Origin: Lentzea atacamensis
Lineage (GTDB): Bacteria > Actinomycetota > Actinomycetes > Mycobacteriales > Pseudonocardiaceae
Reading direction: 5' to 3'
Assembly: GCF_003269295.1 (NCBI RefSeq)
Contig: NZ_QLTT01000002.1
Location: forward strand, 930,001-994,000
DNA: 64,000 bases
Shown here: piece after piece, positions 14,347 to 52,023 of the stretch
How the letters are laid out: each line of letters starts with the position of its first letter
How positions within the stretch are numbered: position 1 is the stretch's first letter
Notes under the pieces: generated by a model
Told to the model about the DNA's origin: nothing
Databases searched by the model: none
What the model saw: the letters and a program-made list of their open reading frames with translations, nothing else
Translations under genes and position numbers: made by a program

Positions 14347-14417
14347 GGGGTGGGTCCCGTCACGAGCCGCACCGGAGCGAGCCACGCTCGGGCACGACTC
14401 GTGACGGGACCCACCCC
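14347..14417. repeat. 20-bp perfect inverted repeat with nested hairpin
   Basis: GGGGTGGGTCCCGTCACGAG (14347-14366) is matched exactly by its complement at 14398-14417. The 31-nt spacer contains GAGCG...CGCTC. It could form a long cruciform or RNA stem. Confidence 0.7.
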
Positions 14418-47858: not shown

Positions 47859-49452
47859 CCAGTGCGGTAACCCGTTCGCGCAACTCGGCCAGACGAGCCC
47901 TACCAGCGGCACGGGCGGACTCCAGTCCGTCCGTGACGGGCTCGACGACCTCCAGGTACGCCTTGAGCTTCGGCTCGGTGCCCGACGGCCGCACGATCAC
48001 GCGCACGCCGTCCGCCGTCCAGCGCAGCACGTCCGCGCCGGGCAGCAGGTCCTCCGACTCGAAGCCGGCGGGAGGCTCGGCGCGCAGCCGTGCCATCGTC
48101 GCGCCGATCAGCGACAAGTCGGTGTAGCGCAAGGAAACCTGGTCGGTCAGGTGCAGGCCGTGGTCGAGCGCCAGCTGGTCCAGTGCGTCCAGCAGCGTGC
48201 GACCGGAGGCCTTCAGCCCGGCGGCCAGGTCGGCGGCGACGACCGCGGCCGAGATGCCGTCCTTGTCGGCCACGTGCTCGGGGTCGACGCAGTTGCCGAG
48301 CGCTTCCTCGTAGGCGAACACCAGGCCCTCGCCCGCCCGCGCCAGCCACTTGAAGCCGGTCAGGGTCTCCGCGTAACGAGCACCGTGCGCGGCGGCGATC
48401 GACTTCAGCAGCGAGGACGACACGATCGTCGTCGCCACCAGCGGATCCGCGGACTCGGTGGTGGACAGCACGAGCGACCCGAGCAGCACGCCCGTCTCGT
48501 CGCCGCGCAACATCCGCCACGTGTCACCGTCGCGCACGCCCAGTGCGCACCGGTCGGCATCCGGGTCCAGCGCGATCGCCAGGTCCGCCTCCACCGACGC
48601 CGCAAGGGAAAGCAGCTCGTCGGACGCGCCGGGCTCCTCGGGGTTCGGGAACACCACCGTCGGGAAGTCCGGGTCCGGCACCGCCTGCGACCGCACCACG
48701 TGCACGTCGGTGAAGCCCGCGCGCCGCAGCGCTTCCACGGCAAACGCGCCGCCAACGCCGTGCATCGGCGTCAGTGCGATCTTCAACGAACGCGACTGAC
48801 CGCGCGGCAACGACGCCACCCGCTCCAGGTAGGCGTCGATCTCCGCCTCGGAAACCGTTGAGTACGAGGGGGACCGGGGCACCGACACCGCGGCCGGCAC
48901 GGCCTCGATCGCCTTCTCGATCTCGCCGTCCGACGGCGGCACGATCTGCGAGCCACCGGCCAGGTAGAGCTTGTAGCCGTTGTCCGCTGGCGGGTTGTGC
49001 GACGCGGTGATCTGGATGCCCGCCACCGCACCGTGCTTGCGCACCAGGAACGCCAGCACCGGCGTGGGCAGCGGACCCGGCAGCACCCGGACGTCGAAGC
49101 CCGCGGCCGCCATCACCTCGGCGGCCGCGGTGGCGAACTCCTCCGACCCGTGCCGGGCATCGCGGCCCACGAACACCAGGCCGGAAGTGCCCAGCCACGA
49201 CGCCAGACCAGCGGTGGTGCGCACGACCGTGGCGACGTTCATGCCGTTGGTCCCTGCTCGCACCGGACCGCGCAGACCGGCGGTGCCGAACGTCAGCGGC
49301 CCGGCCATCCGGTCCTGCAGGTCGGCCAGGGCGGCGGAGTCGCCACCCATCGCCCGTGCCAACACGCCCTGCAGCTCAGTTCGAGTCGCGTCCGACGGGT
49401 CGTCAGCGATCCACCGGAACGTCGCGTCACGCAGTGCCGGCGTCAAACTCAT
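47851..49452 (-). CDS. pmmB: Phospho-sugar mutase (phosphoglucomutase/phosphomannomutase family), likely phosphopentomutase role
   Basis: The 533-aa enzyme has FGTAGLRG near residue 55, the phosphoserine loop TASHNP near residue 149, the metal loop [10 protein letters not shown] near residue 297, the sugar loop GDET and YEEALG near residue 380, and the phosphate motif [10 protein letters not shown] near residue 500. Length and motifs match the PGM2-like group. It ends 4 nt before and overlaps the purine nucleoside phosphorylase, as I recall for M. tuberculosis pmmB-deoD, so converting (deoxy)ribose-1-phosphate to the 5-phosphate is the probable role. Confidence 0.93.
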
Positions 49453-50240
49453 GCCCGGTCCACCAGCTCACGCAGCAGCGTGCCCATGCGCTGAGCGGCG
49501 GCAGCACCGGCGTCCAGCACCTCCTGGTGGTTCAGCGGCTCACCGGTGATGCCCGCCGCGAGGTTCGTGACCAGCGACAGACCGAACACCTCGACGCCTT
49601 CGGCGCGCGCGGCGATGGCCTCGTGCACGGTCGACATGCCGACCAGGTCCGCGCCCAGCGTGCGCAGCATCCGGATCTCGGCGGGCGTCTCGAAGTGCGG
49701 GCCGGGCAGACCGGCGTACACGCCCTCCTCGAGCGACGGGTCGATCTCCTGCGCCAGCTTGCGCAGCCGCGGCGAGTACAGGTCCGTGAGGTCCACGAAC
49801 CGCGCGCCGACCAGCGGCGACAGCGAGGTCAGGTTGAGGTGGTCGGAGATCAGCACCGGCTGCCCGACGGTCATGCCCTGCCGCAGGCCACCGGCCGCGT
49901 TGGTCAGCACGATCGTCGACACGCCCGCGGCAGCGGCGGTGCGCACGCCGTGGACGACCTTCTGCACGCCCTTGCCCTCGTAGCCGTGGGTGCGGCCGAG
50001 GACGACGAGGACCTTCTTGCCACCCACCTCGACGGAACGGATGGTGCCGCCGTGGCCGAGCGCAGTCGGCGCCTCGAAGCCCGTCAGCTCGCCGACACCG
50101 ATCTCGGTGGCCGGCTCGCCGATCACGTCGGCGGCGGGCCGCCAGCCGGAGCCGAGCACGATCGCGATGTCGTGCTTCGCCACGCCGGTGCGGCTCTGGA
50201 TCTCTTCCGCGGCCTTGCCGGCCAGCTCTTCTGGAGTCAC
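49449..50240 (-). CDS. deoD: Purine nucleoside phosphorylase (trimeric)
   Basis: The enzyme phosphorolyses inosine and guanosine to base plus ribose-1-phosphate. The 263-aa product has [10 protein letters not shown] near residue 30, [10 protein letters not shown] near residue 80, TNAAGGLR near residue 110, [14 protein letters not shown] near residue 178, VGMSTVHEA near residue 198 and VTNLAAG near residue 225. GTG 50240 (MTPEELAG) is chosen because TACGCT lies 6 nt upstream. That box overlaps the end of a MITE-like element. It precedes pmmB and overlaps it by 4 nt. Confidence 0.94.
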
Positions 50241-50246
50241 CGCGAG

Positions 50247-50252
50247 AGCGTA
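50247..50252 (-). promoter_or_regulatory. -10 box of leaderless deoD, partly from the repeat element
   Basis: TACGCT on the minus strand ends 6 nt before the GTG start. Its TA coincides with the terminal TA of the 138-bp element. Confidence 0.45.
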
Positions 50253-50388
50253 AGCCGTGTCCTGTGGGTCTGTCCGATGAGAGTCGTGACTGTGCAGATC
50301 GGGCTCTGGGCGGAGTTCATGGTGGTGCCGCCGCGAGGGACCCTCTCGGGCGCGGCTATCGCGGACGTCACCCGCAGGACACGGCTTA
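50251..50388. mobile_element. 138-bp MITE-like element with 19-bp terminal inverted repeats
   Basis: TAAGCCGTGTCCTGTGGGT (50251-50269) and ACCCGCAGGACACGGCTTA (50370-50388) are inverted copies with one mismatch. The outer TA on each side is consistent with a TA target duplication, as in IS630/mariner and some IS5-group elements. No transposase is encoded. It lies exactly between the kinase coding end and the deoD promoter and supplies the kinase TAA stop. Confidence 0.65.
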
Positions 50389-52023
50389 CACCGGGGCGAA
50401 GGTGGAGGCGATCGCGTCGAAGAGCCTGACGCGCGCCTCGTCCTCCTGCTCTGTGGGCACCACCACTTCGACCACCCACAGATCGTTGCCGTACGGCAGC
50501 ACGCGGGAGAAGTGCGACCTCCGCAACGCGTTGGGTTCGTCACCCTCGACGGTCCGGTAGATGAACTGGATGCCGTCCTCGCTGTGCGGCCCCGCGAGGT
50601 TCGGCGTGAGCACCTTCTCGCCGCCGAAGAACCTGCCCGGCCACCGTGCCTGCACGCTCGCCGTGTACGCGCTGATGTCGCGCCTCGGGTAGTAGTCGGG
50701 GTAGCGCTGCACCGCGACCTCGTACGCGCCGCTCGGCGACACGAAGTGCACCACCGCGGAGGCGGGCATCAGCTTGTCGGCCGCGCGCTGCTCGGCGTAC
50801 ATCGTCCAGCTCGCCTCGACGTTCAGCGTGAACTTGCCGCCCTGGTCGCCGATCGCAGTCACCGCCGACGCCGTCCTCGGCTCCAGTCTCGGCGCCACGG
50901 GGAGTGTCGGCAGGGTCTGCAACGTCTGCTGGGTCGGCGGCAGCAACGGCGCACCCGCGGCCAGCCGCGTCAGCGCGAACCCGCCACCGGAGCCCACCAC
51001 GAACAGCAGGATGGCCGCGACCAGCAGGAACGTGGTGGCGACCCGTCCGCGCGGCCGCTGCGGCGCGAGCGGCTTGGTGACCATGAACGGCAGCGGGCCC
51101 GGATCGTCGGCCAGCGGCGCGTCCGGTTCGATCTTCGGCTTCGGCCGCACGACCACCGGCAGCGGCACGGACTCGCGGACCTCGAACGCGTCGGTGCCCG
51201 GCTCCGGCAGCAGCGGGTAGACCTGCTTGCGCACGTCGACCAGCGAGAGCCGCTCGGCCGGATCCTTCTGCATCAACCCGCTGATCACCGGCGCGAGCCG
51301 CCCGGCACCCGCCGGCACCGGCACGTCGCCGTTGATCACCGCGTTGATCGTCAGCATGACGTTCTTGCCGACGTACGGCGGCTCGCCGGCCATCGCCGCC
51401 CACATCGTCGCGCCCAGCGACCACCGGTCGGCGGCCTCCGAGACGTCACCGCCCTGGGCGACCTCCGGCGCGATGTAGGCGGGCGTGCCCAGCGTGATGC
51501 CGCGTGCCGTCATGGTGGCCTCGGCGACGTTGCGTGCGATGCCGAAGTCCGTGAGCTTCACTCTGCCGTCGTCGGCGATCAGCACGTTGCCGGGTTTGAC
51601 GTCGCGGTGCGTGATGCCGGCCCGGTGCGCCGCCGCCAGGGCGGCCGCGACGGCGTCCATCACCGCGGCGCCCTGCTTCTCGGTGAGGCAGCCTTGCTCC
51701 TGCAGCACCTCGCCGAGACTGCGGGACGGCACCAGTTCCATGACCACGTACGGGTCGCCGTCGTGCTGAACGACGTCGTAGAGCGTCACGAGGTTCGGGT
51801 GGGAGAGGGCGGCGACGGCCCGTGCCTCGCGCATCGTCCGTTCGCGCAGCTCATCGGCGGCCACGTCCGTCATGCCCGGCGGTCGCAGGATCTCCTTCAG
51901 CGCGACCTGCCTGCGCAGCACCTCGTCGTGGGCGGCCCAGACGGTGCCCATCGAGCCCCGTCCGAGCAGGTGCAGCAGCCGGTACCGAGCCGCGATCAAG
52001 CGCTCCTGCTCAAGGTTCTCCAC
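50386..52023 (-). CDS. Membrane-anchored Ser/Thr protein kinase
   Basis: The 545-aa protein has an N-terminal Hanks-type kinase domain (residues 14-270): [25 protein letters not shown] near residue 137, [16 protein letters not shown] Pro-rich juxtamembrane stretch leads to one membrane helix (about residues 330-350). The extracellular domain of about 190 aa has no PASTA repeats. The stop TAA is provided by the MITE-like element, so the original C-terminus may have been slightly different. GTG 52023 is the start. Targets are unknown. Confidence 0.93.

Follow-up and report, generated by a model that had tools for sequence, protein, structure and literature searches.

The short spacer between a deoD-type phosphorylase gene and a Ser/Thr protein kinase gene poses the question of whether a small mobile element has reshaped both of its neighbours. 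The window, i.e., the whole stretch of 64,000 nucleotides that was analysed, corresponds to C2:930001-994000 of G000, a genome of 9.3 Mb that is the window's own among the congeners compared. Both genes lie on the minus strand. The phosphorylase gene (49449..50240; PF01048, E=1.7e-46) starts with GTG and owes the name deoD to the first-pass annotation, and the kinase gene (50386..52023; PF00069, E=2.9e-49) ends with a TAA at the junction with the element. According to that annotation, a 138-bp MITE-like element between the two genes supplies the stop codon of the kinase and part of a promoter for deoD.

The insertion between the kinase and deoD genes

The mobile miniature element in the window is an internally deleted copy of 134 bp (50253..50386, plus strand, which is the motif strand), as judged from its inverted arms, its orthologues, its fold, and its match to a covariance model; the intact form, taken over the whole family, measures about 161 bp. 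The element is flanked by two target duplicates, TA at 50251..50252 on the left and TA at 50387..50388 on the right. The terminal inverted repeats occupy 50250..50269 and 50370..50389 on the plus strand. These 20-nt arms are 95% complementary, i.e., they pair with one mismatch, which confirms the two TA-bounded repeats reported previously. The 138-bp MITE-like element is upheld as a mobile miniature element, with its extent revised to 134 bp plus a TA on each side. On the same strand lie the left body core GTCCGATGAGAGTC (50272..50285; GTTCGATGAGAGTC in the family form) and the right body core GGCTATCGCGGACG (50354..50367).

A covariance model built without the window copy, but with that of G020, finds the element at 50253-50386 (E=2.9e-12). 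The first search of the window's own genome returned no second full-length match to the 138 bp, and a scan of that genome with a TIR pattern was uninformative (1118/1085 matches vs 973/928 for the reversed control pattern). Reading of four further places with similar ends in that genome brings the number to five, the window copy included. The window also contains a second, weak match to the hairpin model (14348-14416, minus strand, 28 bits, E=0.0008), possibly a remnant or an unrelated hairpin.

All 24 congeners, G000 included, yielded the orthologous junction. The site is empty in 15 of them, filled with forms of 23-161 bp in eight, and divergent in one (G019), whose junction CCTAAACCGG looks empty. 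All 15 empty alleles read TTAAACCGG, preceded by AGC in 12 and by ATG in three, and AGCTTAAACCGG is found in 12 of the 15; where the window has its left TA duplicate, the empty allele has a single TA. Thus, the empty sites that the first-pass annotation proposed to look for in relatives do exist. The filled alleles measure 161 bp in G020, 134 bp in G000, 88 bp in G015, 64 bp in G009, 46 bp in G023, 35 bp in G006, and 23 bp in both G021 and G005. The 161-bp homologue at the same site in G020, the 15 empty congeners, and the model match in the window together amount to more than chance, and the window element is a genuine, decayed MITE copy. Its sequence is neither confined to this locus nor common to all relatives at this site.

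Two sequence differences bear on the number of insertions that took place here. All eight filled alleles have CACCGG where all 15 empty ones have AACCGG, and this common C-for-A change points to one insertion. The left interior is readable in six filled alleles, of which five have GTCTGT in place of the GTCCGT of the family consensus and the sixth, G009, has CTCTGT; since GTCTGT also occurs in some copies elsewhere, it supports one insertion weakly. In the flank tree, which was used for its local groupings only because the outgroup, G019, has a badly aligned flank (branch 8.5) and the root is unreliable, the filled species are scattered: G000 groups with the empty G014 and G008 (97), and the empty G017 falls in one group with the filled G006, G021, and G005 (100) and G015 (95). 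Recombination between species or repeated losses are therefore needed besides a single insertion.

The empty allele also clarifies the origin of the two signals. On the minus strand, most empty sites read GTT-TAA-GCT-CTCGCG-GTG, in which the single TAA not only stops the kinase but also makes up the first three bases of TAAGCT, a -10-like box 6 nt ahead of the deoD GTG. In the window, the right TA duplicate accounts, on the minus strand, for bases one and two of the kinase stop TAA (50388-50386), whose third base, 50386, is the last base of the element; the left duplicate forms the first TA of the -10-like TACGCT (50247..50252, minus strand), 6 nt before the GTG at 50240. These positions are as described in the first-pass annotation. 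The notion that the element created the stop codon must nevertheless be abandoned: in the 15 empty congeners, the kinase gene already ends in GTT TAA, where filled alleles have GTG TAA or GTG TGA. Nor did the element create the -10, as empty alleles already carry TAnnnT at the same spacing (TAAGCT or TAACAT); the motif precedes deoD in all 23 congeners scored by script, the 24th, G019, having been read by eye. The insertion duplicated the TA common to both signals, kept both, and created neither. What changed at a filled site is the DNA upstream of the -10, where the element tip replaces kinase codons. The -10-like box probably acts as the deoD promoter, and its spacing suggests leaderless transcription of this gene. 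Given the empty allele, the local story is an ordinary one of two overlapping signals that were split and kept; the family is, in our opinion, the interesting part.

Spread of the family and its IS5-like tips

A search with the 161-bp consensus gave matches in 23 of the 24 congeners, which bears out the earlier proposal of a non-autonomous element with many copies in relatives. A covariance model built from 38 full copies returned 1 to 71 matches in each of 23 congeners (one copy may count on both strands) and, under stricter filters, reached 69 of 200 genomes and 20 of 46 genera of the host family, which we take to be Pseudonocardiaceae. It should be noted that such a model may reward any long hairpin; hence, the 19 other-genus loci that it returned (L229-L247) were read. 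A GTTCGATGAGAG-like core is present within 2 edits in 12 of these and only at 3 edits in four, and in the other three (L238, L241, and L242) the core was not found by script and the body is visible by eye. Among 45 named loci with the element core, 33 belong to Lentzea and the other 12 to Actinokineospora, Actinocrispum, and Allokutzneria. Copies of the congeners recur letter for letter in named Lentzea loci (e.g., L226 of G021 and L143). Both observations suggest that the window comes from a Lentzea. Intact copies are short (158-165 bp) and non-coding, and have terminal inverted repeats. The plasmid collection gave no match to the element.

A set of 70 copies was assembled from 82 of 247 loci picked as copy-bearing, with the best 150 of 160 matches aligned, one strand kept per locus, and duplicates of the same copy dropped; it leans to well-preserved copies. 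The window copy (L001) and L151 fell outside the best 150 and are thus not among the 70. The deoD site is represented twice, by L055 (G020) and L056 (G015). Two variant forms were also seen. Copies of a second, roughly 162-bp subfamily, which is similar in core and loop but has another stem and GGGCCTGTATCGAAGTC-like tips, lie in L059, L065-L067, L077, and L078 near 1395-1644; several are in G005, G021, G006, and others. L088 contains, at about 360-457 on its reverse strand, a copy with the unusual tip GAGGTTCGCTTCATGGGTC and without TA flanks.

On average, the left and right tips of a copy are identical at 16.0 of 17 positions, with a minimum of 14/17, in the 70 copies, which were chosen by a model that rewards pairing; between copies, the agreement is 10.0. 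One conserved body is combined with different tips, which may have been exchanged or may have diverged together with those of the ISs. Similar tips are found at the ends of IS5-type elements of the genus, with CTA/TAG as the usual flanks. The tips were compared with those of 15 insertion sequences (ISs), pairs not of this tip type (L193, L195, L250, L251, L262, and L265) being left out. A match of at least 15/17 was found for 25 of the 70 copies, nine of them at 16 or more and three at 17/17, as raw counts without a chance level, against ISs that share a common start. The best IS for these 25 copies was L210 in 15 cases, L187 in six, L183 in two, and L182 and L256 in one each; the other 45 copies had no match of at least 15/17 among the 15 ISs. 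Transposase pieces of L210 and L187 match PF13340 and PF01609, and NF033580 is over its cut-off in both L210 pieces and in the one L187 piece tested; the genus thus has a transposase of the IS5-type DDE class.

As to the parent IS with matching ends that the first-pass annotation had envisaged, there are ISs with similar ends, but none of the 15 has the tips of the window copy, the best match to the deoD-site forms L055 and L056 being 13/17. A scan of 180 loci for a parent carrying these tips 500-3500 bp apart yielded one weak pair, in two overlapping loci. The window's own genome has two PF13340 matches, one of which is an IS with another tip. The body core is absent from all eight ISs examined, and a simple internal deletion of one of these eight is thereby ruled out. 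Among the congeners, G016 and G012 have many IS5-type transposase matches (19 and 17) and almost no hairpin elements (0 and 1 weak match).

Pairing of the arms and what may maintain it

Each of twelve folded 160-161-bp copies forms one full-length hairpin (-120 to -147 kcal/mol). Of the 64 pairs in the alignment of 38 copies, 39 vary on both sides, and 96.8% of the cells pair, vs 81.3% in shuffles and 35-42% with the partner slid. On the GTTCGATGAGAG strand (the motif strand), the mismatched cells in the model alignment of the 70 copies comprise 449 G-T, 14 A-C, and 84 others, a count that leans towards the model and its pairing, from copies that share ancestry and columns that are not independent. 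When each copy was compared with its own reverse complement, without the model, the mismatches were 647 G-T, 97 A-C, and 428 others. On the motif strand, 51 column pairs have more G-T and three more A-C. G-T occurs beside A-T at pairs 7/161 and 68/100 and beside G-C at pair 56/112; one-strand deamination alone is therefore not an easy explanation. Column identity averages 70% and 69% for the tips and 87% for the cores; it is 86% in the apical part, and the middle arms reach 73% and 76%.

These data allow, tentatively, the reading that the body is a structured module of RNA or single-stranded DNA, selected as a hairpin and spreading with the ends of whichever IS5 is present, so that the MITE label would be true but incomplete. 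The compensatory changes, the level of pairing relative to shuffled and slid controls, the G-T excess in both counts, and the stronger conservation of core and apical columns relative to the tips all speak for such a module. Its orientation, however, shows no bias with respect to neighbouring genes (in same-direction pairs, the motif strand runs 12 with and 17 against), and a search of six loci against Rfam at E up to 1 gave nothing above the gathering score and one sub-threshold microRNA match. Moreover, several remnants at the deoD site have lost the hairpin loop, and the relatedness of the copies and the leaning of the model alignment weaken the argument from covariation itself.

Mutation could also keep the arms paired, an explanation that we regard as possible but less likely than not. 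Template switching between quasi-palindrome arms during replication is a known mutational process, which copies changes from arm to arm. In agreement with this, the arms covary among the deoD-site orthologues, where selection on mobility may be gone: CCTGTGGG/CCCACAGG in G020, CCTGAGGG/CCCTCGGG in G015, and CCCGCG/CGCGGG in G023. Yet template switching should erase mismatches, whereas the same positions are unpaired again and again in the folded copies; nor does template switching account for a G-T excess on one strand.

A host function of the hairpin at the deoD site, for instance as an insulator between deoD and the kinase transcript or as an mRNA stabiliser, is improbable. The shrunken remnants of 23-88 nt in G015, G023, G006, G021, and G005 still fold as hairpins, but inverted tips give a hairpin by default, 15 of the 24 congeners do without the element, the ends no longer pair in G009, and the length differs in almost every filled species. 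Chance origin of the inverted repeat in this spacer, to which the lack of another full-length match in the first own-genome search might have pointed, is refuted by the empty alleles, as well as by the homologues at the site and elsewhere and the model matches.

Landing sites, mechanism, and related systems

In 44 of the 70 copies, a neighbouring gene's coding frame terminates precisely at the TA|R junction, and in 14 this holds on both sides, with coding called by a home-made GC3 score and not by a gene finder; as both deoD-site copies have a junction stop, the count by independent insertion is nearer 43/69. Among the 140 sides, the frame stops at the junction in 58 and slightly short of it in two, and continues into or through the element in 13; the remaining 67 lack a coding frame that extends this far. 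At control sites in the flanks of the same loci, gene stops occur at 14 of 54 CTAG and 19 of 106 YTAR sites (odds ratios 4.8 and 7.7) and at none of 14 TTAA sites. These controls include gene interiors, in which insertion would be counterselected; the excess of junction stops is therefore no proof of targeting, and target choice and selection are not separated by it. CTAG sites number 77 in 289 kb of flanks. In L295 and L298 (G023 and G000), which are without the element at the gene end concerned, a terminator-like, GC-rich inverted repeat GAGCCGCCCACCGGCGGAAGYGGTGGGCGGCTC directly follows a TACTAG stop.

TA is present on both sides in 43 of the 70 copies and absent on one or both sides in 27. 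The targets deduced for the 43 are CTAG (22), TTAG (5), CTAA (4), TTAA (2), and others (10), i.e., YTAR in 33. For IS5, the available part of PMC10359306 gives YTAR as the duplication. A 4-bp YTAR duplication is less likely here: TA fits better, given that the 4-mers to the left and to the right are not the same in every copy (TTAG and CTAA at L004 of the own genome). Two further comparisons of empty and filled sites, GCCTAACGC in G005 vs GCCTA[161]TAGCG in G021 and TACTAGCGCC in G002 vs TACTA[163]TAGCGCC in G008, have TAA or TAG already at the target. The element starts with G or A, so that the TA|R junction stays a stop. In L143 (1369-1529) and L126 (1484-1646), the insertions lie at a YTAR common to the overlapping stops of two convergent genes, both of which keep a TAG at the two ends of the element; the corresponding empty sites are in G005 and G002.

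The window element is very probably a decayed copy of a MITE that transposases of the IS5 family mobilise in trans; to judge from sequence, this is the most likely route by which the window's copy was mobilised. The observations behind this are the empty and filled alleles, the TA duplication, the regenerated stops, the similar IS ends, and the spread of the copies. IS5-family transposases prefer YTAR-like sites, and TA is duplicated when the element inserts. CTAG sites are scarce in these genomes, about a quarter of the tested ones being stop codons. Insertion at a stop causes little damage, as the first base of the element is G or A and TA|R again gives TAG or TAA on both sides; insertions elsewhere were probably selected against. 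The target at the deoD site was TTAA, which served both as the kinase stop and as the beginning of the deoD -10-like box; each gene received its own TA, neither being broken, and in several lineages the middle of the copy was later lost.

A wider picture is more speculative, and we consider it rather doubtful: a mobile hairpin in 20 of 46 genera of the family, whose body would be under a single-strand, RNA-like constraint independent of its ends, whose tips of about 17 bp would be swapped to fit the available IS5 transposase, and for which stop codons would be harmless landing sites restored by its own first base. The rule for harmless landing at gene ends is simple: a YTAR-type target contains stops, and a purine-first element restores the stop on both sides. 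In high-GC genomes, the sites at which such elements and their parent ISs build up should follow from this rule. The strand-specific G-T excess, together with the covariation, makes RNA selection on MITE hairpins directly testable in culturable actinomycetes. Caution is also due, since such repeats can sit inside promoter and gene-end annotation.

Among the matches listed in the open-access literature, none dealt with an element of this kind in Lentzea or in relatives of that genus. Comparable repeats are known from other bacteria. The hosts of ERIC and RU elements belong to another phylum, and RU-2 corresponds to YPAL; Correia elements have TA ends; REPs are mobilised by RAYTs and are not known to have a TA duplication. 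As described in the available parts of the respective papers, ERIC and the enterobacterial RU-1 and RU-2 are likewise intergenic stem-loops of 100-170 bp with a TA duplication, sometimes at 3' ends of genes (PMC2759123, PMC2267715, PMC10969869), a likeness of form only, known from descriptions and not from sequence comparison. These excerpts report TA duplications of enterobacterial repeats (PMC2759123), ERIC and YPAL as stem-loop families (PMC2267715), and ERIC at 3' ends of genes (PMC10969869). One RU-1 in the same excerpts reportedly eliminated a stop by fusion (PMC2759123), the reverse of the deoD site. Junction stop codons and tips matching several IS5 elements are features of the present element that are absent from these partial descriptions of ERIC and RU (PMC2759123, PMC2267715, PMC10969869).

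IS5-family ISs and the MITEs derived from them share terminal inverted repeats and a YTAR-like target with this element; the ISs differ in that none of the eight examined holds its body core. REPINs and REP palindromes, in the accessible sections of the sources, are likewise dispersed, palindromic, non-autonomous repeats (PMC3116915, PMC3733652), REPs being of 20-40 bp (PMC3733652). The Correia elements (NEMIS) of Neisseria, which are also mobile and reside in a different host, are likened to it by form and not by sequence; their transcripts are cut by RNase III at the inverted repeats, as stated in the part of PMC10969869 available. By analogy, the present element may work like the ERIC and Correia elements.
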